Shown here piece by piece: positions 3,888 through 53,125 of a stretch of 53,125 nt of DNA. Source of the stretch: Stenomitos frigidus ULC18 (GTDB lineage: Bacteria > Cyanobacteriota > Cyanobacteriia > Leptolyngbyales > Leptolyngbyaceae); the NCBI RefSeq assembly GCF_003003795.1, contig NZ_PVWK01000132.1:1-53125 (forward strand), in the 5' to 3' direction. Made by a program: the position numbers and the translations under genes. Under the pieces are notes generated by a model. It had not been told where the DNA came from, did no database searches, and worked only from the letters and a program-made list of their open reading frames with translations. Each line of letters starts with the position of its first letter. The stretch's first letter is position 1.

Positions 3888-4886
3888 TTACAGCCCTTTA
3901 TTCCCCCACTTTAGAAAGACGCTGTTTTGTAGGGAATCTAGTAATAGGTAGGGTGGATCTGCATCCGGTTTGCATTGAATCGCTCGTCGCACTCTCCATA
4001 AAGCAAAACTCAATGACCAGGCAAGATCGGCTAAGGCGGCATATAGAAAACCGTGATTCTTCACGAAATAGCGTCGGCGAGAATCAAAGAGATACTGTGG
4101 CAATCGTTTAGGAGTGTCATCTCTGGTTGTTACCCCTGTACTTGCTCCTGCGATATGCATGACGCGACCTTCAGGGACATACCAGCAAGACCAACCGCTC
4201 CGTCTAGCTTGGAGACAGAAATCTGTCTCTTCGTAATAGAGGAAATATCCTTCATCCATTAAACCTGCTGATTCAAACACTTGCCGACGGATCATCATAC
4301 TTGCCCCAGGCAACCAGTCTACCTGCTGTGGCTCGTTGGTCATTGTTTGGGGAACAATCCATTTAGCTAAGAGTTTTGACACAATTCCTAATCGCACACC
4401 ATTCTCTAGCTCGCTCAATATAGAGGGAAAGCGAAACGCTGTAGACCAGGTTGTGCCATCTGGATTTTCAAGACCGCTGCCGACAATGCCGACATCTAGG
4501 TGCTGCTCCATAAAGCCTGTGAGTGCCTTGAATAGACCGGGACGCACCTGCGTATCTGAATTGAGTAGTAGGAAATACGAGGGTGGATTGGGGGACTGAA
4601 GTGCGGGGCGAATTGCCAGATTATTGCCATAAGCAAAACCGCCATTATGGTCTGAGGGCAAGACTGAAGCCCAATTTCCCCAACCATTGGTTGTAATGGC
4701 TAAATCAATTGCTTCTGCGGAGTGATCTCCAGATGCATTATCAACCACGACAACACAAGTGTCTGGACGTGATCTCACTTCATCTTCAAGAGAGCGCAAA
4801 CAGTCAATGGTCAGCGAGGACGTGCGGTAGTTGACGATGACAACCATTAAAGAACATGGATCCGTGTTTTGATTAGTCATATCCAT
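3888..4886 (-). CDS. GT2-family glycosyltransferase (rhamnosyltransferase-like)
   Basis: The 332-residue protein has a GT-A fold start (VVIVNYRTSSLTIDCLRSL, about residues 15-33), VVVVDNASGD near 45-55, a LLLNSDTQV metal/nucleotide motif near 107-115, a WLPGASMMIRR segment and a YYEETDFCLQARR acceptor-side motif near 215-227. These are features of inverting GT2 enzymes of the WbbL type that add a deoxyhexose to an acceptor. It starts 39 bases after the stop of the NRPS-like gene on the same strand, so the two are probably co-transcribed, and it may glycosylate the product of that enzyme. Cell-envelope polysaccharide synthesis is the alternative. The donor sugar cannot be read from the sequence. 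ATG codons at 4886 and 4880 are both possible starts. Confidence 0.8.
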   Translation of the reverse strand: MDMTNQNTDPCSLMVVIVNYRTSSLTIDCLRSLEDEVRSRPDTCVVVVDNASGDHSAEAIDLAITTNGWGNWASVLPSDHNGGFAYGNNLAIRPALQSPNPPSYFLLLNSDTQVRPGLFKALTGFMEQHLDVGIVGSGLENPDGTTWSTAFRFPSILSELENGVRLGIVSKLLAKWIVPQTMTNEPQQVDWLPGASMMIRRQVFESAGLMDEGYFLYYEETDFCLQARRSGWSCWYVPEGRVMHIAGASTGVTTRDDTPKRLPQYLFDSRRRYFVKNHGFLYAALADLAWSLSFALWRVRRAIQCKPDADPPYLLLDSLQNSVFLKWGNKGL

Positions 4887-4925
4887 AGGGTAAAGATTCA
4901 GTTCACTCGGTTTTAGCTGTCTGGT

Positions 4926-7900
4926 TTAGCAGTCTCTAGAAGACGGCTCTAGAAGCAAAGATGTTTCTGATTGTTGTGCCACAAGGCTCGGCGACGGTTG
5001 GTCTTTGGCTACATCGGCGATCGCCGCATCAATGTAAGCTTGCATCTGTTTAGCCATGATCTGCACATTGGGTGCTTGCAACATACTGGAATGCCCACCA
5101 GGGTTGGTATGAACTTTGATTCCTCCTGTTGCCCTGTTGCCCCATCCCAACAGCGAATCACTGTAAATGTCAGCGTAGGGGGTATCGTCAATGGGGGTAC
5201 CGTCAATGAGAGTACCGTCAAAGCGATTACTTTTTTGAGTTGCCAGGACAAGAAGCAGTTCTCCTTCATAGGGAGCCTGCGGAACATATTCTCGTTCGGC
5301 AAATTTCAAGACGAGCCGAACGGGAAGATTGTACAGAAAGGGTGGGATGGGTCGGTCTTGATCCAGGCAATACCGGAACAGCTTGATCTTGGTCTGGTTT
5401 TGAACTTTCTTAAGCTTTGTCTGGATCTCGTAGCTGATCAGGTTGTAAATCTTCTGACTGGCTTTCTTCAAAATCGAGAGTAACGGCGGCGGGTTCCCTT
5501 CTCCCCCTTGACTTAAGGATTGCGAAAAACTGCTCAACCGTTTATTGGCAATCAAACCACTTCGCACCGTTGCTTCCACATCCGCTGTGTCAATCAGCGC
5601 GACCATGGCAACAGTTTGACCCTGCATTTGCAGTTGGCGAGCGATTTCAAACGCTAGAAAGCCACCGACACATAAACCGCCCAGTAAGTAAGGTCCGTCT
5701 GGTTGAACGGTGCGGATTTGTTCGATATGGTGGGCTGCCATCTCTGCAATGCGAGTGTGTAGGATAGGATGGCGCTCCTGGCTATGGGGTTGGATGCCAT
5801 AGACGGGATGCTCCGGCTTCAGGCAGTAGGCCAGATTTCGGTAGAGTAAGGTTTCGCCCTCGCCATCATGAATGAAGAACACTGGGGGTTGGGTGCCGCC
5901 CTCCTTAAGTAAAACGAGCGAGCTACGTTGATCTAATTGCCCTGGCTGATTGAGTAATGCTGCCAATTGCGCGATCGTTGGCGCAGTCAGAAGCGCGCTG
6001 AGGGGAAGCATTTTACCAAACACAGCTTCGATTTGAGCCATAAGGGATACAGCCAGTAGGGAATGCCCTCCGACCTCAAAGAAATTGTCATGGATACCAA
6101 TGGGACTGATGCCAAGTGTGTCTTCCCAAATAGCCGTCAACTGCTGCTCCCATGCATCGCGTGGGGCAACAAACGCTTTGAACCCAGCCATGTTTTCAGG
6201 CGTCGGCAGCGGCAAGGCTCGGCGATCGACCTTTTGGTTGATATTGACTGGCATGGCGTCTAACACCACAAACGCAGCTGGAACCATGTAGTCCGGTAAT
6301 TTCTCTTGCAGTACGCTACGGATGCTTTCAATCAACGGCGTTTGAGCCTGATCGAGCACTACATAAGCGACCAAACTTTTTTCGCCCTGACCCGCTTCAC
6401 GAGCACCCAGTTCGCGTGCCATGACGATGCCCTCGCGTACACCGGGGATCTGACGCAGAGTGGCTTCAATTTCGCCTAACTCAATGCGCATACCGCGCAG
6501 TTTAATCTGAAAATCAGTGCGACCCAGCATTTCCAGATTGCCATCCGCGTCGAGCCGACCTAAGTCACCTGTACGATAGAAGCGCTGACCATCGAGCGTG
6601 ACAAATTTTTCCTGGGTCAAGGCTTCTCGTTGCAAATAGCCCTTCGTCACACCATCGCCACCGATATAAATTTCACCCGGAATGCCGATCGGCACCAGGT
6701 TTTGATGGGCATCATACAGGCGCACAGAAACATTTGAAAACGGCTTGCCAACCCGGCTTTTGGTGATCTGCTGATCTCTAACAACTGGATAGGTACAGCC
6801 CATACAGCTCACTTCACTACAGCCATAAATCACATAGACTTCTGCTTGCTGAAACACCTTCTTCATGGTGTCCAGCAACGCGGCAGGCACCATATCACCG
6901 CCTGTAGAAACGTGTTTGAGCGCTTGGAAGGGCTTGAGGTCTAAATGATTGTCTTGAATATAAGCTAAGAGCTTTTGCAGCAAACTCGGTGAGGTATGAA
7001 TCACGGTCAACTGTGACAGAGTTTGCGTCAGGCGCTTGAAATCTAAAATATGATCCCGTTCTAGAATCATGAGCGTGCCACCTGCAACCAGCGGTGACAA
7101 AAGCTCAAACATGGTGATACTAAAGGTGAAACGAGCGATCGCGGGCATCACATCGTGGCAGTCAAAACCAAAGCGCTCTTGAGCCACCAAAATGTAATTC
7201 ACCAGATTGCCGTGGCTGGTTACAACACCCTTGGGCTTACCCGTCGTTCCAGAGGTATAAACTAAATGAGACGTTTGATCGAGGCGAATCTCAACTTCAG
7301 GGTTATGCGTGGGGAACGGCTGCACCAATGCCCAATCTCGGTCAAGACAAAGAAGATGGTCTGCAAGTGCGGGTAAGCGCTCCGCAAGGTGAGACTGAGT
7401 TAATAAGACTTTGGGTTGAGCTTCTTCCAGAATGGTGGTCAAACGTTCTGCCGGATGGGTTGGATCAAGCGGCACATAAACACCACCCGCCTTGAAAATA
7501 CCCAGCAAACTCACTGCAATGTCTAACGATGGTTCAACACAGACTGCCACCCGTACCTCTGCACTAACGCCAGCAGACCTTAAGTAATGAGCCAGTTGGT
7601 TAGCGCGTTGATTGAGTTCTGCGTAGGTGAGCTGCTGATCCTTAAACGTCAGAGCGATCGCATCGGGCCGTTGAACGGCATGAGCCTCGATATAGCGATA
7701 AATCGGCGCTTGTGGATACTGAGCGGGGGTACTTTGCCACGTCACTAACAGTTGCTGTGTTTCCGCCTGCGTCAATAATGGCAGTTGAGCGATCGAGCCA
7801 TCCCGATCGGCCATAAGACCCTCTAGCAGTACTTGAAAGTGACCTGCCAAACGATTGATGGTCTCTGGCTGAAACAGGTTGGCATTGTATCGAAGCACGC

Positions 7901-8633
7901 CTGAAAGGTTGTGTGGCTGCTGCAGCATAATCAGATGCAAATCAGGGCTGTCAGAGCGCCCAGGCGTTTGCAGTTGAAAGTCTGCTAGCCACTGCTCCTT
8001 CCCTTCAATGCGAAAGAAGTCTGTAATAAAGGTGACAGCAACTGGTAAAGATAGGCGTTGATGGCTTGGCTGACCTGTCTGGGTTCGATCCAGCAACGTG
8101 TTTGCAGGTGCTTGAATTGCTTTTAACGTTTCTGAAAGTTGGTCAATTAAGGCACGAGCACTTAATTCACCGTCGATCGGAGTACAAATTTCGACTATGC
8201 AAGCCTGGTTTGTTGCGTCACCTGGAAGCTTCAGTTCCAGATCAATGCTTTCCTGCTGCGTATACCGATAAAGGAGCGCATTGAATGCGGCTAGTATGAG
8301 CGATCGCTCATCAATCTCATCCTGTTGAGCCTGCGTCTGCAGAGACTCAACCAGGCGATCGGGCAAGGTAAGTGCGCAGTACTTGGGCTGATACGTTGTC
8401 GTGGGTGTTTTAAGAAAATCGCTTGGTAATTGCAAAACCGATCGGTCTGGGTCTACCGTCTGTTCTAGCGCTATTTTTTGAGGGGAAAGCGCTCGTTGAT
8501 TATCCGTCTTCATTAGAGTCGACGTTTGAGTTAACAAGTTTGCTTTTGCCAAACCTACAGGTTCTGGCGCTGGTTCAGGGTTGATGGCTGAGTTTTCGGT
8601 TGAAGAAAACGTTTTTTGATTAGTGGCAACCAT
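4926..8633 (-). CDS. One-module NRPS-like synthetase (partial C-A-T-TE), atypical substrate pocket
   Basis: The protein has 1235 residues. Residues about 70-305 resemble only the C-terminal part of a condensation domain; no HHxxxDG catalytic motif is present. An adenylation domain spans about 310-805 (A3 core VYTSGTTGKPKG from residue 458, RTGD near 687, Lys801 in NQKVDR). A carrier domain has the phosphopantetheine Ser858 in GGHSL. A thioesterase domain spans about 915-1205. By hand alignment to GrsA, the position of the amine-binding Asp235 is Ser505, and the pocket reads roughly S-I-F-H-S-G-I-C-M-K. This implies a substrate without an alpha-amino group, such as a keto, hydroxy or aryl acid. 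The TE nucleophile motif is GLCVGG, so Cys988 replaces the usual Ser; D1015 and H1181 complete a possible triad. It diverges from the HPPD/TyrA genes and is followed by a glycosyltransferase gene. Family assignment is firm; the substrate is inference. Confidence 0.9.
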   Translation of the reverse strand: MVATNQKTFSSTENSAINPEPAPEPVGLAKANLLTQTSTLMKTDNQRALSPQKIALEQTVDPDRSVLQLPSDFLKTPTTTYQPKYCALTLPDRLVESLQTQAQQDEIDERSLILAAFNALLYRYTQQESIDLELKLPGDATNQACIVEICTPIDGELSARALIDQLSETLKAIQAPANTLLDRTQTGQPSHQRLSLPVAVTFITDFFRIEGKEQWLADFQLQTPGRSDSPDLHLIMLQQPHNLSGVLRYNANLFQPETINRLAGHFQVLLEGLMADRDGSIAQLPLLTQAETQQLLVTWQSTPAQYPQAPIYRYIEAHAVQRPDAIALTFKDQQLTYAELNQRANQLAHYLRSAGVSAEVRVAVCVEPSLDIAVSLLGIFKAGGVYVPLDPTHPAERLTTILEEAQPKVLLTQSHLAERLPALADHLLCLDRDWALVQPFPTHNPEVEIRLDQTSHLVYTSGTTGKPKGVVTSHGNLVNYILVAQERFGFDCHDVMPAIARFTFSITMFELLSPLVAGGTLMILERDHILDFKRLTQTLSQLTVIHTSPSLLQKLLAYIQDNHLDLKPFQALKHVSTGGDMVPAALLDTMKKVFQQAEVYVIYGCSEVSCMGCTYPVVRDQQITKSRVGKPFSNVSVRLYDAHQNLVPIGIPGEIYIGGDGVTKGYLQREALTQEKFVTLDGQRFYRTGDLGRLDADGNLEMLGRTDFQIKLRGMRIELGEIEATLRQIPGVREGIVMARELGAREAGQGEKSLVAYVVLDQAQTPLIESIRSVLQEKLPDYMVPAAFVVLDAMPVNINQKVDRRALPLPTPENMAGFKAFVAPRDAWEQQLTAIWEDTLGISPIGIHDNFFEVGGHSLLAVSLMAQIEAVFGKMLPLSALLTAPTIAQLAALLNQPGQLDQRSSLVLLKEGGTQPPVFFIHDGEGETLLYRNLAYCLKPEHPVYGIQPHSQERHPILHTRIAEMAAHHIEQIRTVQPDGPYLLGGLCVGGFLAFEIARQLQMQGQTVAMVALIDTADVEATVRSGLIANKRLSSFSQSLSQGGEGNPPPLLSILKKASQKIYNLISYEIQTKLKKVQNQTKIKLFRYCLDQDRPIPPFLYNLPVRLVLKFAEREYVPQAPYEGELLLVLATQKSNRFDGTLIDGTPIDDTPYADIYSDSLLGWGNRATGGIKVHTNPGGHSSMLQAPNVQIMAKQMQAYIDAAIADVAKDQPSPSLVAQQSETSLLLEPSSRDC

Positions 8634-9537
8634 AACAAAACTCCTAAATTTTCATAGCAAATTTTTTCAAACGTGCTTACACGAATGAAGAACCATTACC
8701 AAGGGTTTTAACGATCACAAACTGCAGACTTAGTTAAAACGATGAGTCGGCAGGCTTAAAGAGTGATCACCAAAGGCCCGTGAAGTAGAATGCAAGATCA
8801 ATTACAACTGTCAGCTACGGTAATCCTGAGTTATTTGATCATTAAAGCCCCAAAGCATTGGGAAACCCGGTAAAAATGCTGATATGTATGAAGCACTCAT
8901 CGCTGGGACATCAGCATCTGAGCCTTAACATCAACGTTTATGTGCAGCAAGAAAAAACCATTGGCTAATTGCCGTTGAAGGTTCAGTCTTAACAGGGAAT
9001 GGACAGCAAGCGCAGCGACAGTCATTCATGCAAGCGAAGGTTGTCGAGCAAAACTTGGCTGAGTAGATGAGTCTGAGGGGCCTCAATCACAATTTATGCG
9101 AGACTAACACGGCTTTATTTGGAGCAACCACTGTTCTCCAAAAAGTTCATCAAGAGAATACAAGCTACTCACCCTATGATGAGCAACGCGAACTAAAGAA
9201 TAGCGATGATTAGAGATGCCATGAGGCTTCTACGGGATTACCAGTCGAAGCACGTAGGCAATTGGATTTAAACTTCCCGTAAATTCTCGGTCAAAAACGG
9301 CTGCATTGAGAAGGTTACGCTTTATGGCTTTCTTCCAATCGACCTTGAAAGACCACCAGGCATAGCTTCCGAGCAATCTTTACGAAGTCAGACTTTTTAA
9401 TGAAGACTGCGTAATTCCACTAGGCATTTCTTCTAGAGAGCAAATAGAGTTAACCAATCAAGTCGATAAAACTCCTAACGAGTCCTGAGGCTTGGTTGGT
9501 GTGAAGCCTTTTCTTGTCATCTTTAAGAGAAATTACT
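8634..9537. promoter_or_regulatory. Long divergent intergenic region of the putative biosynthetic cluster
   Basis: About 900 bases separate the divergent NRPS-like and dioxygenase genes. No open frame with family character was recognised. It contains an inverted repeat ATGCTGAT (8876-8883) / ATCAGCAT (8910-8917) and several AT-rich stretches near the NRPS start. It must hold the promoters of both transcription units, but no convincing -10/-35 pair or known operator was found by eye. It could also contain decayed coding sequence. Confidence 0.4.
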
Positions 9538-10623
9538 ATGAACGACAACTGCCCTATCAAAGGACTTGACCATCTGGAGTTTTATGTTGGCAACGCTAAG
9601 CAAGCTGCACTTGTTTACTCTAAATGTTTTGGCTTTACCACCACTGCTTATCGAGGTTTAGAAACTGGCGATCGCAAAGTGACATCCTATCTCTTGCAAC
9701 AGGGAGAGATACGATTCGTTTTGAGTTCAGCATTAAATTCAGAGTATGCCATCGCACAGAGCGTTCTAAAGCATAGCGATACCATTGCCGTCATTGCGTT
9801 AGAAGTCTCCGATGCAGCAGTCGCCTATAAGCAAGCAGTTGATCGAGGCGCGATCGGAGCAATTCCACCGACTAATCATGAAGACGAGTATGGTGTCTTA
9901 CGTTATGCGGCCATCCGTACGTTTGGTGACGTTTTGGTGAAATTTATCGATCGTAGCCACTACGTGAATAACTTTGCACCAGGTTTCGTCTCGCGATCGT
10001 CGGCATCCACCAATGAAGCCGGGTTGAAGCGGGTTGATCATATCGTTGGCAATGTTGAATACGGCGCGATGGATCAATGGGTTGACTTTTTTGTCAAGAC
10101 GATGGGCTTTGATGTGCGCATGCATTTTGATGACCATGCGATCTCAACTGAATATTCAGCCCTGATGTCAAAAGTGCTGGAAAACGGTAGCAAAACAATT
10201 ATTAATATTAATGAGCCAGCACCGGGACGACGTAAATCTCAAATTCAAGAGTATCTGGATTTTCATAACGGCCCTGGAATTCAACATATTGGTCTGGCAA
10301 CCGATGATATCGTTCAAACGGTCGTTTATTTGAAGCAGGCTGGGGTTGAATTTCTACCCATTCCCCAAACCTATTACGACAATCTGGAAGACTGGGTCAA
10401 GGAGCTTGATATTCCAGTGAAGCAACTGGCAGAGCTAGGGATTTTGGTCGATCGCGATGACGATGGCTATCTCTTGCAACTATTCACAAAGCCAGTGGGC
10501 GATCGACCAACACTGTTTTTTGAAATTATTGAACGACATGGTTCACGCGGCTTTGGAGCGGGCAATTTCAAATCTCTCTTTGTCGCCCTAGAACGCGAAC
10601 AGGCCGCACGGGGAAATCTCTGA
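9538..10623 (+). CDS. hppD: 4-hydroxyphenylpyruvate dioxygenase (HPPD)
   Basis: This 361-residue Fe(II) enzyme of the vicinal-oxygen-chelate fold is expected to convert 4-hydroxyphenylpyruvate to homogentisate. The three metal ligands are visible: H168 in RVDHIVGNV, H250 in GIQHIGLATDDI and E329 in LFFEIIERHG. The C-terminal helix carries GFGAGNFKSLF (Phe344), the form seen in HPPD; hydroxymandelate synthases, as I recall them, have Ile here (SSNI). The ATG at 9538 is preferred because AAGAGA lies 7 bases upstream; the frame also opens at a TTG at 9514. It heads the plus-strand arm of the cluster, with the bifunctional TyrA following 58 bases after its stop. It may serve the cluster or tocopherol/plastoquinone-type metabolism. 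Confidence 0.88.
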   Translation: MNDNCPIKGLDHLEFYVGNAKQAALVYSKCFGFTTTAYRGLETGDRKVTSYLLQQGEIRFVLSSALNSEYAIAQSVLKHSDTIAVIALEVSDAAVAYKQAVDRGAIGAIPPTNHEDEYGVLRYAAIRTFGDVLVKFIDRSHYVNNFAPGFVSRSSASTNEAGLKRVDHIVGNVEYGAMDQWVDFFVKTMGFDVRMHFDDHAISTEYSALMSKVLENGSKTIININEPAPGRRKSQIQEYLDFHNGPGIQHIGLATDDIVQTVVYLKQAGVEFLPIPQTYYDNLEDWVKELDIPVKQLAELGILVDRDDDGYLLQLFTKPVGDRPTLFFEIIERHGSRGFGAGNFKSLFVALEREQAARGNL

Positions 10624-10681
10624 ACCAACAAACAAGACTGTCGTGAGTGCATGCAACAATTCTCTCCCTTTGGTAGTGATT

Positions 10682-11785
10682 ATGAACACCTCTGAAACGC
10701 TCCGACAACTTGATCAAACGTTAATTGCACTTCTCAGCGATCGCATCTCACTCCTGGCAACACTAGAAACGCCTTCAAGGCAGGAACAGCTAGCCAATTA
10801 CCAATCACAGCTGACCCAAGCGGGCGTTCCAGCCTACCTTTGGGATAGCATCGTCACCCATTGCATGGCAGCGTTAGCGAATGCACCATCACGTCACACG
10901 ATTGTTGAGCCACGTAATATCACTGTGGTTGGTGGACGTGGTTTGATGGGATGCTTTTTTGTCGATCGACTGTCTGCAGGCGGTCACAACGTGAGTGTTT
11001 TGGAATATGACGGTTGGGAACATGCTGACAGACTGCTGGGAGGTGCCGATTTGGTGCTTCTTTGTGTACCGCTAAAGGCCACAGTAGCCGTAGTTCGGAG
11101 GGTCGCCCCATACCTTTCGCCAACGACAACACTGGCAGACATTGCCAGTACCAAGGTTTCCATTATGCAAACCATGATGGAATGCCATTCAGGTCCTGTC
11201 ATGGGTCTTCATCCCATGTTTGGTCCGGGGCCTAGCTCCTTTTTGGGGCAAAAAGTGGTGACTTGCCCAGGGCGAGACCCCGAAGCGAGCCAGTGGTTGC
11301 TGGATTTAATTGAAGCGGATGGTGGCAAACTCATTAGTTGCACGCCCGATGAGCACGATCGCATGATGGTTGCAGTGCAGGCCATTCGCTTCTTTGCTAA
11401 CTTCACGCTAGGGGCTTTTCTGGCAGAAGAGGGGATTGATATCGAACGCAGCCTTGAATTTGCTAGCCCGCTCTATCGCATCGAAATTAACACCGTTAGC
11501 CGTCTACTGGCACAAAGCGCCGCTCTCTATATTGATATTCTGCTAGCGTCAGACGAACGTTGTGAGGCGATTAAGCGCTTAGTCAAAACCTCCGATCGGT
11601 TAGCGAAGCTCCTGGCACAAGGTAACCGCGCCGCCTTAATCGAAGAGTTTGAAACCGCTCACAAGGCGTTTGGGGATTCACCACGAGCGCTCGAAGAAAG
11701 CAATCATGTCATCAGTCATCTGAGCACCTTTCTGGCTGCTAACGCAATGAAGACGAGAGCCAAGGTGGAACCAATCTACAGTTAA
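10682..11785 (+). CDS. tyrA: Bifunctional chorismate mutase / prephenate dehydrogenase (T-protein type)
   Basis: The N-terminal helical segment (about residues 1-85, LRQLDQTLIALLSDRISLL) matches AroQ-type chorismate mutase. It is followed by a Rossmann motif (NITVVGGRGLMG) and a TyrA dehydrogenase domain with GLHPMFGPG and the EHDRMM motif. The order and length match the E. coli T-protein rather than the short cyanobacterial arogenate dehydrogenase, which is encoded separately at 26221. It should turn chorismate into 4-hydroxyphenylpyruvate, the substrate of the preceding dioxygenase. The frame extends to a GTG at 10643, but the ATG at 10682 opens directly on the mutase helix. A palindromic repeat lies just after the stop. 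Such T-protein genes are known in cyanobacterial scytonemin clusters, but no scyA, scyB or scyC is present here. Confidence 0.88.
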   Translation: MNTSETLRQLDQTLIALLSDRISLLATLETPSRQEQLANYQSQLTQAGVPAYLWDSIVTHCMAALANAPSRHTIVEPRNITVVGGRGLMGCFFVDRLSAGGHNVSVLEYDGWEHADRLLGGADLVLLCVPLKATVAVVRRVAPYLSPTTTLADIASTKVSIMQTMMECHSGPVMGLHPMFGPGPSSFLGQKVVTCPGRDPEASQWLLDLIEADGGKLISCTPDEHDRMMVAVQAIRFFANFTLGAFLAEEGIDIERSLEFASPLYRIEINTVSRLLAQSAALYIDILLASDERCEAIKRLVKTSDRLAKLLAQGNRAALIEEFETAHKAFGDSPRALEESNHVISHLSTFLAANAMKTRAKVEPIYS

Positions 11786-12103
11786 TTAAGCCCATAAGGA
11801 CGCAAGGCCCTGCGCCCCTACGAGGATAAGAGGTTTCTCAGCGATCGCCTTCAATCCAACAGGGTTGAAGGCACGACATACCAAGCTCGCTGCGCGACTC
11901 CAGATCAGCTGATCGGTACGATTTTTTGTAAGATGGGGTATGTAGTGCTAGTTCACGCAAGCGGCTTGGGTTCTCTGCCGTAATTCAACGTGCAAGCAGC
12001 TTGAATGCTTGTCAGCAGCTTGAATTTACTCACACCCATACTTCCTGTTGATCGTAATTGACAAACAACTGCTAAGGTTCTTCATTGAACTATTGACACC
12101 CAC
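11786..12103 (+). repeat. Intergenic region with palindromic repeat (copy at 11798-11821)
   Basis: The 318 bases between tyrA and the DAHP synthase gene contain a near-palindrome, GGACGCAAGGCCCTGCGCCC plus CTAC, at 11798-11821. Related copies occur at 29946 and 49266. A partial direct repeat of GCAGCTTGAAT lies near 11990-12030. No gene was seen. The repeat could act as a terminator for tyrA, in which case aroG has its own promoter. Confidence 0.55.
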
Positions 12104-13186
12104 ATGCCTAAGACCTCCGATCTCCACGTCATTGAGACTCGCCCGCTGCTAAGTCCAGCTTTTATTCACAGCGAGTTACCCATTACCGAGAAAGCGTCGG
12201 TCTTGGTGACCGAAACCCGCGATCGCATCCGTAATATTCTGCGGAGTGAAGACAGACGATTGCTGGTGATCGTCGGTCCCTGTTCAATTCACGATGTTGA
12301 TGCTGCTTACGCCTATGGCGAAAAGTTAGCAGTTTTGCGCCAAGAATTAGACGATCAGCTGGAAATTGTGATGCGGGTGTACTTTGAAAAACCTCGCACA
12401 ACGATCGGCTGGAAAGGGCTGATTAATGATCCTCATCTAGACGGCAGCTTTGACATCAACACAGGACTACGACGGGCGCGGCGGCTCTTGCTAGACCTGG
12501 CTCATTTAGGGCTTCCCGCTGCTACCGAGCTGCTTGATCCGATTATTCCTCAATATATTGCTGACGTCATTTCCTGGACGGCGATCGGAGCTCGTACAAC
12601 CGAAAGTCAAACGCACCGCGAAATGGCGTCTGGACTATCGATGCCCGTAGGCTTCAAAAACGGGACTGATGGTGGATTTGGCATCGCTGTAAATGCAATG
12701 CTGTCCGCCAGTCAACCGCATCGCTTTTTGGGGATCAATTTTCATGGTTTAGCGAGCATCGTCACCACCACAGGCACACCAGATACACATCTGGTGCTCC
12801 GAGGGGGTAAACATGGGCCAAACTATGACGCCGTTAATGTCGAAAAGGCAGTCGCGGAAATAACGAAACATGGGCTAAACCCGCGAGTGATGGTGGATTG
12901 TAGCCATGACAATGCAGCCAAGGACTACACAAACCAGCCAATCGCCCTCCAAAACATTGCCGATCAAATCACAGCAGGCTCTCACCACCTGATGGGAGTA
13001 ATGATTGAAAGTCACCTGGTGGCAGGCAATCAAAAGCTTGCCAAAGATCTAACCAAACTGGTTTATGGACAAAGCATCACTGATGCCTGTGTGGACTTTG
13101 CAACCACTGCCGACATGCTGCGATCGCTAGCGAACTGTCTTGCCAGAGCCAACCCTGAACAGAGAGCAGTGGTCGCTGTTGACTAA
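12104..13186 (+). CDS. aroG: 3-deoxy-7-phosphoheptulonate (DAHP) synthase, AroG/AroF class
   Basis: This 360-residue enzyme condenses phosphoenolpyruvate with erythrose 4-phosphate at the entry of the shikimate pathway. Motifs of the E. coli-type class I alpha enzymes are clear: IVGPCSIHD near residue 60 (with the metal Cys), EKPRTTIGWKGLINDP, GARTTESQTHR, GFKNGTDG, NFHGLAS with its metal-ligand His, and VDCSHDN. No extra regulatory domain is seen beyond the N-terminal extension typical of this class. It lies on the same strand as the dioxygenase and T-protein but 318 bases away. Its presence supports dedicated precursor supply to the cluster. Confidence 0.93.
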   Translation: MPKTSDLHVIETRPLLSPAFIHSELPITEKASVLVTETRDRIRNILRSEDRRLLVIVGPCSIHDVDAAYAYGEKLAVLRQELDDQLEIVMRVYFEKPRTTIGWKGLINDPHLDGSFDINTGLRRARRLLLDLAHLGLPAATELLDPIIPQYIADVISWTAIGARTTESQTHREMASGLSMPVGFKNGTDGGFGIAVNAMLSASQPHRFLGINFHGLASIVTTTGTPDTHLVLRGGKHGPNYDAVNVEKAVAEITKHGLNPRVMVDCSHDNAAKDYTNQPIALQNIADQITAGSHHLMGVMIESHLVAGNQKLAKDLTKLVYGQSITDACVDFATTADMLRSLANCLARANPEQRAVVAVD

Positions 13187-13324: not shown

Positions 13325-13392
13325 GATCGCTATCGTTAGAAGGCATCATTGCGAAGGCATTCGTTTTGCTTGTGCGCCATGAGACCGTTGCG

Positions 13393-14520
13393 ATGACACC
13401 GCTATCGATGCAGCGTTTAATCCAATTTGCTTTGCTGGTTGTGCTTTTGAGTCTGGTGGCGATCGGCGACATTGGCCTCCAGAGGAACGCGACCGTGGGC
13501 TTATCAATCGGCGATCGGACAGCCGAGGAGGGGCAGGAGCGTACGCGCTTGACGCGGATCAGTGCTGGCAGCACCGAAGACGTTTGGACGTTACCGATCG
13601 TTCAACTGGCAGCAACGGCAAGTAAAGTCCCTCAGTACACGACGTGGGCAAACGTTGAGGCGTTGATGATCGCGCGGGTCAATCTGATGACCGATCGCGC
13701 TTCAGCCGGAAAGCCTGTTCAGGTGCTGGAAGCGGGTCAGCAACGAGCGACAGGAGCCCTGCAACATTCCTCCAGCGAGGCTTCAAAGGCTCAAGACCCA
13801 GTGTTGCTAGCGGCGACTTGGGAAACGCAGAAGGACACCCAAACGATTGATGCTGAAAAGCGTGACCGTGATGGGTGGCATCGACTGCGCCAGCAATTGG
13901 ATACCGCTATCCGTTATGGGTACTTTGTCAAGCTACCGCAGGGCTACGAAACAGACGCACTCCAACGCTGGCCTGTCATTTACTACTTACATGGTTCTGG
14001 CGGCGGTGATCGTGACGCCTGGTCAGGGACAAAAGAAAACGATGGGCCGCAATATTTTGCTCGCACTAAGAACAACTTTCCGTTTATCGTTGTCTCTCTC
14101 CGCAGTCCTGGCGGTTGGCATCCACCAGCAGTAAAAGATGTGATGGATGAGGTTGAACGCAGGTATCGCATTGATCCAACACGTGTCTATCTCACTGGCT
14201 TCAGTATGGGTGGCGTCGGCACATGGAGCGTTGCGTATGACCAACCCGATCGGTTTGCGGCGATCGCCCCAGTCGGCGGTTTAAAGGGCGATCCATCACG
14301 AGCCGCTCAGTTAAAGTCTATTGGCGTTTGGGTCTTTAATGGAGCCAACGATCATGTGACACCAGCAGCAGACGCACGAGTCGCGGTCAAAGCGCTACGA
14401 ACTGCTGGAGTGTCAGTCAAGTACACCGAGATTCCCAATGCTGGACATGTCGAGTCGCTAGACATCGCCTACCGCAACCCAGAGCTGTATACCTGGTTCC
14501 TCAAACATCATCGTCCTTGA
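13393..14520 (+). CDS. Exported alpha/beta-hydrolase, esterase/phospholipase-like
   Basis: The N-terminus has a hydrophobic signal-like segment (QRLIQFALLVVLLSLVAIG), so the enzyme is probably exported or membrane-anchored. The C-terminal 220 residues form an alpha/beta-hydrolase: oxyanion-hole motif YYLHGSGGG, nucleophile elbow GFSMGGVG, Asp in FNGANDHVTP and His in PNAGHVES. This arrangement resembles carboxylesterase/PHB-depolymerase-like families acting on esters. About 150 residues between signal and catalytic domain have no recognisable family. ATGs at 13393 and 13408 both suit the signal peptide; the frame also opens at a TTG at 13366. It follows the aromatic cluster, but nothing ties it to that cluster. 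Confidence 0.75.
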   Translation: MTPLSMQRLIQFALLVVLLSLVAIGDIGLQRNATVGLSIGDRTAEEGQERTRLTRISAGSTEDVWTLPIVQLAATASKVPQYTTWANVEALMIARVNLMTDRASAGKPVQVLEAGQQRATGALQHSSSEASKAQDPVLLAATWETQKDTQTIDAEKRDRDGWHRLRQQLDTAIRYGYFVKLPQGYETDALQRWPVIYYLHGSGGGDRDAWSGTKENDGPQYFARTKNNFPFIVVSLRSPGGWHPPAVKDVMDEVERRYRIDPTRVYLTGFSMGGVGTWSVAYDQPDRFAAIAPVGGLKGDPSRAAQLKSIGVWVFNGANDHVTPAADARVAVKALRTAGVSVKYTEIPNAGHVESLDIAYRNPELYTWFLKHHRP

Positions 14521-22366: not shown

Positions 22367-22852
22367 TTACTGCAAAGCGCCAATGACGTAGTCGAAATAA
22401 GCACCAGCTTCAGCCGCATCTTCACCAGAAAGGAGAGAGGTAGCAACACTCTTAAGGCCACGAACACCTTCGCCAACCGCTGCGATCGGGGTTCCCAGAG
22501 AAGAGTACATTTCACGCACGCCCACGATGCCGATTTCTTCGATCGGGGTTACATCACCAGCGACAATACCGTAGGTCACAAGACGCAGGTAGTAGTCGAG
22601 GTCACGCAAGCAGGTTGCAGTCATTTCTTCGCCATAAGCGTTGCCACCAGGAGAGACAACGTCAGGACGCTTTTGGAATAGCTGATCGCCAGCTTGCTTG
22701 ATGATGCGTTCGCGAGATTCGGTCAGCGTTTGAGCGATCCGCAGTCTCCGTTCGCCAGTGGTGACAAAGCTCTTGATGCGATCTAGTTCGCCAGGGCCAA
22801 GGTAGCGAGCTTCAGCATCTGCATTCACGATCGATTTCGTGACAATACTCAT
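22367..22852 (-). CDS. apcA: Allophycocyanin alpha subunit
   Basis: The 161-residue alpha subunit of allophycocyanin; the chromophore-binding Cys81 is in [19 protein letters not shown] strong ribosome site (TGGAGGAATCC) precedes the ATG. It is the first gene of apcABC. The core-membrane linker apcE, which precedes apcA in many cyanobacteria, is not next to it: the upstream neighbour is the divergent cobalamin gene. Confidence 0.98.
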
Positions 22853-25930: not shown

Positions 25931-26220
25931 TCAGATTTACCTTTACAACGAACTCAGGCCGCTTTAGAGCCAGCGCTTCGATCACTGAACACGCTTTAGT
26001 GTGCCTATAAAAATTATCAACGAAAATTCTCAATGAGATCGTTATGACGAAGCCCGATGCTACGGCACAGTCCAATGCTAAGGTGCCCGCATTGAGCTCA
26101 AAAATTAGCCTGCGCTCGATCGAAGGTTTGGGTTAACAACAGTGGATGATAGACATAAAGGCTTTAGTAATGGGGCTTTGGCACACCTCAGGCTAAAGAT
26201 TAAACATGATGGAAGGTGGC

Positions 26221-27057
26221 ATGAAGATTGGCATGATCGGGTTGGGGCTCATTGGCGGTTCGCTAGGGCTGGCTTTGCGATCGCATGGGCACACAGTTTT
26301 GGGCGTTAGCCGTCAGGCACTCACCTGCCAGCGCGCGATCGCGCGCGGGGCCGTTGATGATGCCAGCCTTAGCCTCAGCCTGATGCAAACCGTTGATGTC
26401 GTCTTTCTCTGTACGCCTTTGGCAGCGATGCAGGCGACTGTGATCGAATTGGTGCCCCATTTAGCAGCCGACACTGTACTCACTGATGTTGGATCAGTGA
26501 AAGGTTGGGTGGTGGAGACGATCGCGCCCCTCTGGTCAAACTTTGTCGGTGGACATCCGATGGCGGGGACTGCCGAAAGCGGCATTGAAGCGGCACAGCA
26601 GGATTTGTTCATCAACGCTCCTTATGTCTTAACGCCGACTGAAACCACGCCAGCACGGGCAGTACAACTCATCGAAGACCTGGTGCGACCGCTACAAACC
26701 CGACTCTATCATTGTCATCCAGACGATCACGATCTTGCCGTTGCCTGGATCTCGCATTTACCCGTCATGACCAGCGCCAGTCTGATTGCCGCTTGTCTTG
26801 ATGAAGCCGATCCAGCCGTTTTAGGGCTGGCACACGCACTCGCCAGTTCTGGCTTTCGGGATACCAGTCGAGTTGGTGGTGGCAACCCTGAACTGGGTGT
26901 CATGATGGCGCAGTACAATCAAGCCGCCCTGAGGCGATCGCTGCACGCCTACCGCGATCGCCTCGACCAGATCATTACCCAAATTGAGCAATCAGACTGG
27001 CAATCGCTAGAAGCCTTACTCAAGGAGACGCAACAGTCGCGATCGGAGTTTTTGTAG
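26221..27057 (+). CDS. tyrA: Prephenate/arogenate dehydrogenase, housekeeping type
   Basis: A short TyrA of about 279 residues without a mutase domain. The Rossmann motif is IGLGLIGGSLGLALRS, and GGHPMAGTAESG and HDLAVAWISHLPV are characteristic of the cyanobacterial enzyme, which generally uses arogenate with NADP. It makes tyrosine for general metabolism. The ATG at 26221 follows GGAAGGTGG; a start at 26206 is also open. It is a second, distinct dehydrogenase in addition to the T-protein at 10682. A GGGGAAG tandem repeat begins right at the stop codon. Confidence 0.9.
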   Translation: MKIGMIGLGLIGGSLGLALRSHGHTVLGVSRQALTCQRAIARGAVDDASLSLSLMQTVDVVFLCTPLAAMQATVIELVPHLAADTVLTDVGSVKGWVVETIAPLWSNFVGGHPMAGTAESGIEAAQQDLFINAPYVLTPTETTPARAVQLIEDLVRPLQTRLYHCHPDDHDLAVAWISHLPVMTSASLIAACLDEADPAVLGLAHALASSGFRDTSRVGGGNPELGVMMAQYNQAALRRSLHAYRDRLDQIITQIEQSDWQSLEALLKETQQSRSEFL

Positions 27058-36467: not shown

Positions 36468-37673
36468 ATGTCGAAACTGCTTAGCCACAAAATCGCACCC
36501 TCCCCCATGCCTGCCTCGATCAGCGTCGTTGACCTGATTGACGGCTACTTTACGGCATACAACTCAGCTCGTTTGCGCGAAATCTGTCACCTGTTGAGCC
36601 GCGAAGTGATGCAACCCGGCGTCACAGTGGGCTTGAGTCTTTCTGGAGCCATGACCCCCGCAGGTTTTGGGGTATCAGTACTCGCCCCGTTAATGCGTCA
36701 CGGGTTTGTGGACTGGATCATCAGCACAGGCGCGAATCTCTATCACGATATGCACTATGGCTTGGGACTGGAACTCTACTCCAGCAGCCCCTTTTTGGAT
36801 GATGTGAAGCTGCGTCAAGAAGGTCGCATTCGCATCTACGACATTGTGTTTGACTATGACGTGCTGCTGGAAACCGATGCGTTTCTGCGCGAATTGCTCA
36901 AAGCGGAACCGTTCCAAAAACGCATGAGTACGGCAGAGTTTCACTACCTGCTAGGTAAGTATGTGAGCGAAGTGGAAAAGCAAGTGGGTGTGAAAAACTC
37001 CTGCCTGCTGGCAACTGCCTATGAGTGTGGTGTACCCATTTACACATCATCTCCTGGCGATAGCTCCATTGGTATGAATATTGCCGCGATCGCCCTCGAA
37101 GGCTCTCAACTCATCCTCGATCCATCGCTGGATGTGAATGAAACCGCCGCGATCGCCTATGCGGCTCGTGACAGCGGGATTCCTGATGTGGAAGGCAAAA
37201 GCGCTGCGCTGATCATCGGTGGTGGTAGCCCCAAGAACTTCTTGCTGCAAACACAGCCCCAACTGCATGAAGTCTTAGGTCTGGAAGAGCGGGGGCACGA
37301 CTACTTTATCCAGGTGACGGATGCGCGTCCCGACACAGGTGGACTTTCGGGTGCCACACCGAGCGAAGCTGTGAGCTGGGGCAAAGTCGATCCAGAGGAG
37401 TTGCCGAATACGGTTGTTTGCTACACCGACAGCACGATCGCGCTACCCATCATGACGGCTTACGTGATTGACCAGTGTGACGCTCGTCCTCTGAAGCGGT
37501 TGTACGATCGCCGGGAAGCGCTGTTAGCTAAACTCCAGGCAGATTACCTTGCCGCCAAGGCGAATCCCACACATTCAGTCTCGTCCCCGATACCAGCTGT
37601 GGAATCAGTAGAGCGGGAACTGGTTGCAACCTATCCCTGCGGTACACCCATCCGCAACGGACATCGTAAGTAA
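36468..37673 (+). CDS. Deoxyhypusine synthase family protein
   Basis: A 401-residue cytoplasmic protein of the deoxyhypusine/homospermidine synthase family. It has a [16 protein letters not shown] start, [24 protein letters not shown] and the NAD/Lys region [14 protein letters not shown], where the Lys aligns with the catalytic Lys of deoxyhypusine synthase. [13 protein letters not shown] ends the core. Bacteria lack eIF5A, so these enzymes probably act on polyamines (homospermidine formation from spermidine and putrescine) or an unknown substrate. A strong palindromic terminator follows. Confidence 0.9.
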
Positions 37674-49410: not shown

Positions 49411-52400
49411 CTAAAGTCGAGCTAAGGCTTGATCCATACACGCCCTCATCTTTTTCGCTAGAAGCTGAACATTCGGTTCTTGAAGGATGCCAAGGTGATC
49501 TCCAGAAATATCGTGAATCTCCAATCCTCCAACGGCCAGACTTTTCCAAGCTTTCAAGGTGCTAAAGTGGTTTTCATCGATCGCACGGAATAAAACAGCC
49601 TCACCTGAATACGGTTGTGGTGTGTAGCTGTTAAACGCGTAATCCCGGAATATAGTCTGAGCCTCTACATCAGAAACCCGAACACCCACATCAGAAACTG
49701 GTGCAGCGGCTGGATGAATTCCTTTCTGCATTCTCTTCCGAATATAGGGGATCCCTTGTCGTAGAATTTTTCTAGCATGAAGATGAAGTAGTTGCGTAAA
49801 CGAAAGTTTATTTTTTCCTGGGATTGCACTGTCAAACAAACCCAGCAATGCTACTTTTTCACCCTGCAGATGGAGTTGCTGCGCCATTTCAAAAGCGACC
49901 AAACCACCCAAAGATTCACCTGCAAAGAAATAAGGACCCACAGGTTGCTGTGCCCGTATTTCTTTAAGATAACGGGTAGCAAGCTCAGTAATGCTAACTA
50001 AGTTCATTGATGATTGGTCGGATTTCTCACCCTGAGCAGCATGTAATTCTTCTTCTAGATAGACTCCGTATACTGTTTGATCTGTGCCTAAATGTTTTGC
50101 CAGCTCATAGTAAAGAAAGATTCCGTAAATACAGAATAAGGGAGTCTTAGAGTCACCTTTTTGAATTGTGACTAAAGTCTGCGAAGATGATGAACAACCT
50201 TCCTTCCGTAGCGTATTAGCTAATTGCTGAACAGTAGGAGCTTGAAAAAGAATCGACAGGGGTAGCTCTTTCTTATAGGTTTTCTCAATTTCAGTAATTA
50301 AGGCTACAGCTAAGAGGGAATGCCCCCCTAATTCAAAGAAATTATCCTCCATATTGATTGGAGAAATATTCAAGACGTTCTCCCAAATCTTGAGCAGCTG
50401 AAGATCGAGATCATCCTGAGGAGCGATAGATGTTTCATGAACAGTTTCTGAAGACGGTCCTGAAACCTTTTTGCCAATTGGGCTAATGACTTCCTGACGG
50501 GTTTGATCGGGTACAGGTAAAGCTTTACGATCAACCTTCCCGTTCGGAGTCAAGGGAAGAACATCAAGAAAGACGAAGATGGAAGGCACCATATACTCCG
50601 GCACGTTCGCTCTCACTAAGCTTCGTAATTCACTCGTAGATGGTGACTGATTGTTTAGAGCAACAATGTAACCCACTAGACGTTTATCCCCGGGAGCATC
50701 TTCTCTCACAATCACCACCGCTTGCTGTACAGCAGGGTGCTCCACTAAAACGGATTCAATCTCCCCTAATTCAATGCGAAACCCACGAATTTTCACTTGA
50801 AAATCTAGACGACCGAGACATTCAATACTGCCATCGGGCAAGTAGCGAGCTAGATCACCAGTCTTATAAATGCGGGACGCTCCAGTTTCACAAAAGGGGT
50901 TTGGGATGAATTTTTCAGCCGTCAAGTCAGGACGCTTCAAATAGCCCTTGGCTAATCCTGCTCCACCGATATGCAATTCCCCTGCGACGCCGATCGGTAC
51001 TGGTTGTAAAAGAGCATCTAAGATATAGATTTCAGTGTTCGCGATCGGTTTACCAATGGAAATTCGACGCTCATTCAGTCCAACTTTATAGACTGTTGAC
51101 CAAATCGTTGTTTCGGTCGGTCCGTATAAGTTCCAAAGTTCTCCGCTTTTTGCTAACAATTCAGCCGCTAATTCTCTGGAGATTGCTTCGCCGCCAGAAA
51201 GGACTTTCATCGTCTGATTTCCTTCCCAGCCAGCTTCTAGCAATAGTCGCCAAGTTGCTGGGGTAGCTTGCATGACAGTAATTCCCAAGTTGGAGATGGT
51301 TCTTGCCAATTTCCTACCATCCATTGCGGCCTCGCGACTGAGTAACACCACTCGCGCTCCGACAATCAACGGTAAGAAAAGCTCTAGCACCGCAATATCA
51401 AAAGAAAGAGTAGTAACCGAAAGCAACCGATCGTCAGGGCTAATTCCGGGCTGCTGCTTCATGGAGTCTAAGAAGTTCACAACGCCACGATGCAAAACTT
51501 GCACACCTTTTGGTTTACCTGTTGAACCTGACGTGTAAATAACATACGCAATATTGTCTGGAGTAACGCTACTACTAGGCGTTTCCTGAGACTCCTGAGC
51601 AATATCATGCCAGTCTGCATCTAAACAAATAACAGATGCTCCCTGTGTAGGTAATTTTTCTACTAATCGCTGTTGTGTTAACAGCAATTTAACTTGAGCA
51701 TTATCGAGCATATAGTCCACTCGATCCGAAGGAAAATTGGGATCGATCGGTACGTAAGCGGCTCCAGCCTTGAGAATACCAATTAATCCCACAACCATTT
51801 CTAGGGAGCGCTCGACACAAATACCAACTAAGCCATCCGGTTGTACACCTGCTTTTTGCAGGTAATGAGCCAACTGATTCGCCCGTTCGTTCAATGCTTT
51901 ATAGGTAATTGCTTGATCTTCAAAAGCAACAGCAATTGCCTCTGGGGTACGGTCTGCTTGTTCAGCAACTAACTGATGAATGCATTTATCGTGAGGATAA
52001 TTTGTCTGAGTACCATTCCATTCCACAAGTAGCTGCTGTTTTTCTTTCGCTGTTAGCAGCGGCAACTCAGAAATAGCTCGGTCTGGCTGAGTAACAATCC
52101 CTTCTAACAAGGTCTGAAAATGTCCGTTCATCCGTTCAATAGTCTCAGCGTCAAACAAGTCAGTGTTGTATGACCAAATTCCTTCCAATCCATTAGTAGT
52201 TGGCTTTAAGAATAACGTTAAATCAAACTTCCCTTCATTATTTTCAATCACCCAGGGACTTGCAGTTGTTCTGGAAAGCTCAACTGCTTGTAAAGGAACA
52301 TTTTCCTCAAAGACAAACGTGACCTGAAACAAGGGCGCATAGCTTGAGTCTTGCTGCGGACACAGTTCATCAACTAACAAGCAATACGGTGCAGATTGGT

Positions 52401-53125
52401 GAGTTTGAGCGAGCGACGCTACTTTCTGTACCCTCCCCAATAGTTCTTGAAACTTGGGGTGACCAGACAGATCGGTGCGCAAGGGCACAGCATTAACAAA
52501 GTTTTCTGAACCAATACGGCTAACCAAAGGAGAACCGACGATGATATCTTCTGTACCTGCATGACGGTAGAGTAAAACATCAAACGCTGCTAATAACGTT
52601 GTAGAAAGGGTGACTCCTGCCTGTTTGCTCAATAAGTCGAGCGCTGCCGTTAGTTTCTGAGAAATTAAAAAGGACTGAGACTGGCCTCCGAAAGATTGCT
52701 CTGCGGGTCTTGGTCGGTCAGTTGGCAACGATAACAACGGTGGTGCGCCAGCAAGTTGTTGTTTCCAATAGACGAGGGAATCCTGGATGGGCAATTTGCG
52801 TAGCTCTGCAAGCAGGGTTTTGAAAGATGCGTCGTAAATATCTTTATTAATACATTTCAGCTTTGGGTCATAGTGCAAGATCAAGCGCAGGATGCCCAAA
52901 GCCGCAACCCACTGCCCGGCTTGTACATGTCTGATAATTTCGTAGGGTAATCGATCGATAAAAAGCTTTGTCCAAGCCCGCTCACCCTGCCTGTAAGCGG
53001 CTTCATAGTTCTTATTTCCAGTCTCTTGAATATAACTCCACTGCAAACTAAGTAGCTGAGGGTTACAAAGCTCAGGTATGTAACGGTTCATGAATGAGCC
53101 AATTTCGAGGGAAACCGAAATCGTT
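49411..53125 (-). CDS. NRPS module, partial C-A(Gly)-T-TE, with non-NRPS N-terminal segment; runs off the window
   Basis: The frame is open for 1226 residues from the ATG at 53091, and stays open 33 bases further to the window edge, so the protein may continue upstream. Residues 1-78 do not look like NRPS; they resemble the helical tail of glycosyltransferase-type proteins. The condensation domain (about 104-345) lacks its HHxxxDG half. The adenylation domain (about 370-855) has Asp565 at the amine-binding site, and hand alignment gives the pocket DILQLGLIWK, the classic glycine code. Carrier Ser925 is in GGHSL. The thioesterase has Ser1060 in GESLGG, D1087 and H1199. By eye the DNA is more AT-rich than its neighbours, suggesting transfer. 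The product is unknown; the TE could release glycine or a glycine conjugate. Confidence 0.88.
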   Translation of the reverse strand, partial: TISVSLEIGSFMNRYIPELCNPQLLSLQWSYIQETGNKNYEAAYRQGERAWTKLFIDRLPYEIIRHVQAGQWVAALGILRLILHYDPKLKCINKDIYDASFKTLLAELRKLPIQDSLVYWKQQLAGAPPLLSLPTDRPRPAEQSFGGQSQSFLISQKLTAALDLLSKQAGVTLSTTLLAAFDVLLYRHAGTEDIIVGSPLVSRIGSENFVNAVPLRTDLSGHPKFQELLGRVQKVASLAQTHQSAPYCLLVDELCPQQDSSYAPLFQVTFVFEENVPLQAVELSRTTASPWVIENNEGKFDLTLFLKPTTNGLEGIWSYNTDLFDAETIERMNGHFQTLLEGIVTQPDRAISELPLLTAKEKQQLLVEWNGTQTNYPHDKCIHQLVAEQADRTPEAIAVAFEDQAITYKALNERANQLAHYLQKAGVQPDGLVGICVERSLEMVVGLIGILKAGAAYVPIDPNFPSDRVDYMLDNAQVKLLLTQQRLVEKLPTQGASVICLDADWHDIAQESQETPSSSVTPDNIAYVIYTSGSTGKPKGVQVLHRGVVNFLDSMKQQPGISPDDRLLSVTTLSFDIAVLELFLPLIVGARVVLLSREAAMDGRKLARTISNLGITVMQATPATWRLLLEAGWEGNQTMKVLSGGEAISRELAAELLAKSGELWNLYGPTETTIWSTVYKVGLNERRISIGKPIANTEIYILDALLQPVPIGVAGELHIGGAGLAKGYLKRPDLTAEKFIPNPFCETGASRIYKTGDLARYLPDGSIECLGRLDFQVKIRGFRIELGEIESVLVEHPAVQQAVVIVREDAPGDKRLVGYIVALNNQSPSTSELRSLVRANVPEYMVPSIFVFLDVLPLTPNGKVDRKALPVPDQTRQEVISPIGKKVSGPSSETVHETSIAPQDDLDLQLLKIWENVLNISPINMEDNFFELGGHSLLAVALITEIEKTYKKELPLSILFQAPTVQQLANTLRKEGCSSSSQTLVTIQKGDSKTPLFCIYGIFLYYELAKHLGTDQTVYGVYLEEELHAAQGEKSDQSSMNLVSITELATRYLKEIRAQQPVGPYFFAGESLGGLVAFEMAQQLHLQGEKVALLGLFDSAIPGKNKLSFTQLLHLHARKILRQGIPYIRKRMQKGIHPAAAPVSDVGVRVSDVEAQTIFRDYAFNSYTPQPYSGEAVLFRAIDENHFSTLKAWKSLAVGGLEIHDISGDHLGILQEPNVQLLAKKMRACMDQALARL

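Follow-up and report, generated by a model that had tools for sequence, protein, structure and literature searches.

What does a nonribosomal peptide synthetase (NRPS)-like enzyme load when the pocket of its adenylation (A) domain lacks the usual aspartate and its gene is bordered by genes for aromatic precursor supply? This question is raised by a gene cluster at positions 3888-13186 of contig NZ_PVWK01000132.1 of the cyanobacterium Stenomitos frigidus ULC18 (53,125 nucleotides; this whole stretch is hereafter the window). The original prediction, made from the DNA sequence, was of an undescribed aromatic cluster with its own precursor genes, encoding a glycosyltransferase, an NRPS-like enzyme with a non-canonical pocket, a 4-hydroxyphenylpyruvate dioxygenase (HPPD), a TyrA and a DAHP synthase. 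All five genes were recovered at these places by Pfam and TIGR matches, with the HPPD, TyrA and DAHP synthase genes adjoining that of the NRPS, and the interpretation is partly supported: the gene group, which occurs in cyanobacteria of several kinds, probably supplies homogentisate and loads it on an assembly-line enzyme.

Gene content of the cluster

The features of the cluster are as follows (A1 denotes the adenylation domain in question, PCP the peptidyl carrier protein domain, C the condensation domain and TE the thioesterase domain).

3888-4886, minus strand: GT2-type glycosyltransferase, 332 aa (PF00535, 38 bits), directly 3' of the NRPS-like gene
4926-8633, minus strand: NRPS-like enzyme, 1235 aa (Pfam: C-domain remnant, A1, PCP, TE)
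5670-5672, minus strand: Cys988 of the NRPS-like enzyme, in GGLCVGG, the presumed TE nucleophile (TE-C type; TE alignment)
7119-7121, minus strand: Ser505 of the NRPS-like enzyme, equivalent of GrsA Asp235 (alignment)
8634-9537: intergenic region of 904 bp between the divergent NRPS and HPPD starts
9538-10623, plus strand: HPPD, 361 aa (TIGR01263; the listed open reading frame starts at TTG 9514)
10643-11785, plus strand: TyrA, a prephenate dehydrogenase of T-protein descent, its chorismate mutase domain reduced to a remnant (NF008400, PDH_N, PDH_C)
12104-13186, plus strand: type I DAHP synthase of the AroF/G/H kind (TIGR00034, 483 bits)

The GT2 and NRPS genes occupy the minus strand, and the HPPD, TyrA and DAHP synthase genes point away from them on the plus strand. 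A sigma-70-like scan listed no site in 8634-9537, which is not counted as evidence against a promoter there. The NRPS-like enzyme consists, by Pfam, of the C-terminal part of a C domain (165-296), an A domain (316-801), a PCP (830-894) and a TE (917-1191); the C-domain remnant lacks the HHxxxDG motif, and its presence means that the enzyme is not a pure A-T-TE line (T, the carrier domain).

Conservation of the gene set

A search of 388 genomes of the class (G numbers below denote genomes, L numbers loci, and C numbers contigs of the S. frigidus genome) produced matches at E 1e-230 or better in 23 genomes, of which G022 was set aside, having an ordinary Asp235 domain at that place. This left 23 A1 domains with Ser at position 235 in 22 of the 388 genomes, G168 holding two. 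For the window cluster and the A1 loci of the 21 other genomes, open reading frames in the surroundings (at most 20 kb, or less where the contig ended) were then compared with the window proteins. The gene set is real and conserved. The HPPD gene is divergent from, and adjacent to, that of the A1 enzyme in 14 of the 22 genomes, with a gap of 481-1074 bp (median 792); because the same arrangement recurs in so many genomes, the co-location is more than chance, and the original prediction passes its own refutation test, which was a lack of conserved co-location in relatives. In G021, the NRPS and HPPD genes each lie near a contig start in matching orientations, and in G036 they are on different contigs. 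TyrA adjoins the NRPS or the dioxygenase gene in 16 of the 22 genomes and GT2 is at most one gene away from the NRPS in 12 (in G133, an esterase gene intervenes); the DAHP synthase was found in the fetched flanks of only four. The matches listed by a search of genome contigs with the whole NRPS were all NRPSs at 30-42% identity, none of them an orthologue. In G168 (L183:2185-17804), a short and a long A1 enzyme are encoded side by side; a GT2 gene accompanies the long one, HPPD and TyrA genes the short one.

The A1 pocket and its match to the dioxygenase

Pocket positions were assigned by hand from the core motifs. The pocket reads SIFHSGICM in 19 of the 23 domains and SIFHFGLSL in the other four, with Ser instead of Asp at position 235 in all of them. 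Asp235 holds the alpha-amino group of the substrate (PMC11355689, PMC12283262); Ser235 would offer no partner for that group, making an amino acid an unlikely substrate, in line with the non-canonical pocket originally predicted. Two controls support the assignment. First, the nine A1 pocket residues match those derived independently for module 1 of a Pseudanabaena galeata NRPS, which is SIFHSGICM with Ser at 235 and whose substrate is called inconclusive (PMC11356792, Table 1). Second, in the seven long sister enzymes, to which a second module with an HHxxxDG-bearing C domain and a second A domain is added, module 2 gives DILQLGMVW in four and DILQLGVIW in one, which is glycine type in five of the seven, DILQLGMIWK being a Gly code (PMC12283262); the others are DIEDIGTVT (G007) and DPRHCGGQL. 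A likeness of A1 to a 4-hydroxyphenylglycine (Hpg) code, DIFHLGLLCK, was considered as a clue and dropped; it gets little weight because the Hpg codes given in PMC12283262, DAMHLGCTFK and DILHLGCTFK, resemble the A1 pocket less.

The variant pocket goes with a different dioxygenase. In G024, G227 and G133, the cluster has no HPPD and encodes instead a single-barrel HPPD relative of about 225 aa, which in G024 and G227 is adjoined by an O-methyltransferase gene, both running in the direction of the NRPS rather than divergently. The loci of the single-barrel relative are:

L133:13320-15012
L178:12642-14243
L180:7359-8024
L223:837-1517

This protein matches only the start of the catalytic half of HPPD (TIGR01263 positions 156-267, 39 bits, where the cut-off is 277). 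HPPDs are its best, though weak, matches in the PDB (E 5e-6, in two weak stretches) and also follow next, at 28-30%, within the class. His9, His90 and Glu146, presumably the metal ligands, are kept in all four copies. An AlphaFold2 model built from the four sequences was discarded (pLDDT 32.7). At 75% identity or more, the relative occurs in four of the 388 genomes, G024, G227, G133 and G162 (the last copy near a contig start), and SIFHFGLSL is found in exactly these four, the best HPPD of which is 36-64% identical to the window HPPD, against 72-78% for cluster-type copies elsewhere in the same search. The shared pocket is not mere closeness of sequence, because A1 identity falls to 54% within the 19 SIFHSGICM domains, that is, as low as between the two groups (54-70%), with the pocket invariant within each. 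Since pocket type matches dioxygenase type, A1 most likely activates the product of the dioxygenase. The replacement of HPPD by a minimal relative, accompanied by a change of pocket, amounts to a natural experiment on how an A domain would follow its precursor enzyme.

A dedicated dioxygenase

The cluster HPPD scores 403 bits against TIGR01263 (cut-off 277), covering profile positions 2-353 of 353. Its best PDB match is 1t47 (364.6 bits); 2r5v (listed as PCZA361.1), which we take to be a hydroxymandelate synthase, follows at 164.1 bits, so that by PDB match scores the window protein is closer to HPPD than to 4-hydroxymandelate synthase. Its predicted reaction is the conversion of 4-hydroxyphenylpyruvate to homogentisate. 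The genome holds two other HPPDs. That on C76, 64-65% identical to the cluster copy, lies among HgmA-like, FAH, thiolase, acetyl-CoA-synthetase-type and aminotransferase genes, a group which by its gene content is a tyrosine/homogentisate-catabolism set; that on C125 is of a third, distant type, presumably the tocopherol one. HPPDs were sought in 58 and in 13 genomes. In a tree of 35 sequences built by a quick method, the 17 cluster-type copies form one clade (SH-aLRT 100), nearest the catabolic copies; only one of the 17, from G304 (68% complete), comes from a genome in which no A1 was found, the sole such case among the HPPDs of the tree. The dedicated clade and the divergent position beside the NRPS in 14 of the 22 genomes make it likely that HPPD is the supplier, as had been proposed.

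Could the precursor genes instead serve ordinary homogentisate needs (tocopherol, tyrosine catabolism), with the NRPS an unrelated neighbor? HPPD is indeed widespread, with a match in 44 of 58 relatives, but this is very unlikely given two other HPPDs in the same genome, a separate clade for the cluster copies and their recurrent position beside the NRPS.

TyrA and DAHP synthase

The original prediction had TyrA as an Escherichia coli-type T-protein that, with AroG, drives chorismate to 4-hydroxyphenylpyruvate. The descent holds: the cluster TyrA barely passes the T-protein model NF008400 (279 vs 273 bits) and matches PDH_N (56 bits) and PDH_C (42.6 bits). The mutase does not: CM_2 (PF01817) gave no match at E 0.001 in any of ten cluster TyrAs tested (best 0.13), nor in six of six relatives from other loci (best 0.051), against 83.6 bits for E. 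coli TyrA and 69.8 bits for PheA as controls. When aligned, the cluster TyrA has no counterpart of the region around E. coli VGEVKSRFGLPIYVP, and the G019 and G133 copies lack the region. By these profile matches, the protein is a prephenate dehydrogenase of T-protein descent, not a bifunctional T-protein; therefore, prephenate should come from a chorismate mutase elsewhere. A second prephenate dehydrogenase in the window, at 26206-27057, is likely the housekeeping one. The window DAHP synthase has no close match in the genome besides itself, although two other PF00793 genes are present, at C47 and C161.

TyrA of this descent is present in 27 of the 388 genomes, 16 of which also hold A1; in all 16, it adjoins the NRPS or the dioxygenase gene. 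Surroundings were fetched for the other 11, and the neighbors in two loci (L230 and L234) were tested with Pfam. In G304, TyrA adjoins the cluster-type HPPD. Its neighbors in L230 are thiamine diphosphate (ThDP), ELFV, DsbA, AroB and TrpE genes of the scytonemin type, and the one neighbor tested in L234 is an ELFV dehydrogenase; both loci are among the nearest other relatives of the cluster TyrA (49-56% identity). In L227:9413-16049, a TyrA (52%) adjoins a protein of 1768 aa that matches an NRPS thioesterase in its C-terminal part.

Thioesterase type, GT2 and release

The TE-C type was defined by the whole motif set, [GAS]G[LM]C.GG with GGH[SA]SML; Cys occupies the nucleophile position in G001L too, although the TE of that enzyme is of another type. 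In the A1 tree, the long forms make up one clade and the SIFHFGLSL group another, and TE-C was gained or lost at least five times. With G067 (contig end) left out of the count, GT2 lies at most one gene away from 12 of the 15 TE-C enzymes and from none of the seven others (Fisher p 0.0007, ignoring relatedness). In G133, the esterase gene between NRPS and GT2 (L180:13163-14179) encodes a protein that is 30% identical, over a short stretch, to an esterase encoded in the window at 13366-14520, downstream of the DAHP synthase gene.

At 15 further GT2 loci, a TE-C protein is located beside GT2 in five, absent in nine and lost to a contig end in one. Four of the five neighbors (in G007, G036, G067 and G030) are FkbH-T-TE proteins of about 1000 aa; FkbH was assigned by TIGR01686 in the G007 copy, with which, and with the G021 copy, the other three share 58-76% identity over their N-terminal 600 residues. 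In G022, GT2 adjoins a C-T-TE protein. The FkbH-T-TE proteins with TE-C, four of which have GT2 beside them and the fifth of which is at a contig end, are:

L162:120-3125
L208:9939-13994
L211:5982-10087
L212:5988-10093
L214:5863-9921

No paper on FkbH with a glycosyltransferase and an NRPS-like enzyme in cyanobacteria was found in the open-access literature. The predicted structure of GT2 (pLDDT 73.5) has matches that indicate a GT-A fold and nothing more specific, and its sequence gave a single PDB match (E 0.79).

Proposed pathway and alternatives

On balance, we hold it fairly likely that homogentisate is produced by the cluster and serves it as an acyl building block. Gene content and its conservation, the pocket and its match to the type of dioxygenase, the HPPD clade and the association of TE type with GT2 are what the data show directly; which substrate A1 takes and in what order the steps follow are what we infer. 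The DAHP synthase would raise shikimate pathway flux; a chorismate mutase encoded elsewhere would yield prephenate, which the cluster TyrA would convert to 4-hydroxyphenylpyruvate, and the cluster HPPD would turn the latter into homogentisate (2,5-dihydroxyphenylacetate). A1, devoid of the Asp that binds the alpha-amino group, would adenylate homogentisate and load it on the PCP. In the short form, the TE-C thioesterase would release homogentisate, perhaps acting together with GT2 to pass it to an alcohol or a sugar; the long sister enzymes would first join it to a second residue, mostly of the glycine type. The acceptor and the product are at best hinted at. Homogentisate is the best supported of the products guessed at the outset, and release of the acyl group onto or with a sugar is plausible, judging from the association of TE-C with GT2, although unproven; transfer to a sugar acceptor is a tentative suggestion. 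Equally speculative is a broader scheme, a swappable-loader system in which the TE-C and GT2 pair would put different acyl groups on a sugar. Loading would fall to A1 with homogentisate, to A1 together with a further residue, to a C-T unit or to a glyceryl-loading FkbH unit; one branch would have replaced its dioxygenase by the single-barrel HPPD relative and re-tuned the A1 pocket to the product of the latter.

Several observations weigh against this picture. Ser at 235 would not, by itself, single out homogentisate. G007 and G338 have the SIFHSGICM pocket without a cluster-type HPPD, at 82% and 99% completeness, respectively. The four SIFHFGLSL rows form one clade (100/100), hence the co-change of pocket and dioxygenase is one evolutionary event, suggestive but not repeated; a search for further pocket switches in one family (36 genomes) yielded no new case. 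The link between TE-C and GT2 weakens once relatedness is considered: in a tree-aware sign test on five independent pairs, GT2 followed TE-C in a median of four and in none went against it (median p 0.125). In G031, G024 and G036, TE-C occurs with no GT2 alongside, and because the G024 genome contains no match to the window GT2 at E 1e-50, the pair is not obligatory. Furthermore, most of the 26 genomes searched contain a further GT2 match at 55-66%, so the window GT2 is one of a wider family and the pairing is a lead, not proof.

The best surviving alternative is that A1 activates 4-hydroxyphenylpyruvate itself and the A-T-TE line joins two keto acids into a furanone or quinone, HPPD only draining or tuning the pool. 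The single A-T-TE line and the loss of Asp235 fit this, and fungal enzymes of like architecture condense 4-hydroxyphenylpyruvate or phenylpyruvate (PMC9047271, PMC10316625). This explanation, at first thought likely, lost ground because of the two-module sisters and the match between pocket and dioxygenase: sisters with the same pocket have an HHxxxDG C domain and a second A domain, as suits acylation of an amino acid rather than self-condensation, and the pocket changes with an enzyme that acts downstream of 4-hydroxyphenylpyruvate. Moreover, HPPD would use up the substrate. We now regard it as rather unlikely.

It is distinctly unlikely that the cluster grew on the remnant of a scytonemin operon, from which TyrA and AroG would be left over. 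The nearest TyrA relatives do include those of the scytonemin-type L230 and the ELFV-bearing L234, and supernumerary and remnant scytonemin copies have been described (PMC6529634). Nevertheless, a Pfam scan of 27 window proteins, which covered neither every open reading frame of the window nor the remainder of the genome, detected no scyA (ThDP) or scyB (ELFV) type, as the original prediction had stated; the TyrAs of all 16 A1 genomes that carry one adjoin the NRPS or the dioxygenase; and such an origin would account for one or two genes, not for the function of the cluster.

Other genes in the window

A second NRPS-like gene (49411-53091, minus strand, its frame open at the contig end) encodes a partial C domain, a Gly-type A domain (DILQLGLIW), a PCP and a Ser-type TE (AGESLGG); the first 100 N-terminal residues of its product are outside the Pfam matches, and the product is 46-50% identical to the second half of the long sister enzymes. 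A phycobilisome protein (22367-22852) marks the window as cyanobacterial; the window further encodes, in a cyanobacterium, a deoxyhypusine synthase-family protein (36468-37673; PF01916, 234 bits).

Comparison with known systems

To our knowledge, homogentisate is not a known substrate of any NRPS adenylation domain; none was found among the titles and abstracts listed in searches of the open-access literature, nor were the pocket strings or homogentisyl compounds found in that literature. Coverage was of open-access papers, and novelty of the product is not claimed. The claim that the cluster is undescribed stands in part. The SIFHSGICM A domain itself is already in print: OA858_03905, an NRPS of P. 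galeata CCNP1313 (PMC11356792), has in module 1 a pocket identical to that of A1, the domain order A-PCP-C-A-PCP-TE of the long sister enzymes, and a module 2, DAEDIGTVV (called Arg there), resembling the DIEDIGTVT of G007. That paper leaves the module 1 substrate as 'hydroxy/carboxy-acid', and its main text nowhere uses the word dioxygenase; according to its abstract, mass spectrometry detected none of the products predicted there. The link to the dioxygenase and a candidate substrate for A1 are new. On the proposed reading, the P. galeata enzyme would give homogentisyl-arginine (C14H20N4O5, [M+H]+ 325.151) and the glycine-type long forms homogentisyl-glycine (C10H11NO5, [M+H]+ 226.071). Unlike OA858_03905, the window enzyme is a short form with a TE-C thioesterase and GT2.

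The quinone and furanone synthetases, of the fungal kind with RalA and EchA named as bacterial counterparts (PMC10316625), likewise have a single A-T-TE line; Asp235 is absent in the window A1, and an amino acid is not expected. The window family differs from them in the C-domain remnant in front (165-296), in its two-module sisters with an ordinary second A domain and in a dedicated HPPD. The scytonemin operon, like the window locus, has a TyrA of T-protein descent, in which no chorismate mutase domain is detectable either (L230), and carries an aroG (PMC6529634); the window locus has NRPS, HPPD and GT2 genes instead, with no scyA/scyB-type gene among the proteins scanned. The homogentisate-catabolism set on C76 of the same genome includes a related HPPD, but none of its HgmA-like, FAH, thiolase and acetyl-CoA-synthetase-type genes is among the cluster genes. 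NRPSs with their own supply genes for non-amino-acid units are a known kind, from which the use of homogentisate, the pairing of TE with GT2 and the swap of dioxygenases set this cluster apart; if this is true, a building block is named for an enzyme family that is in print without one.

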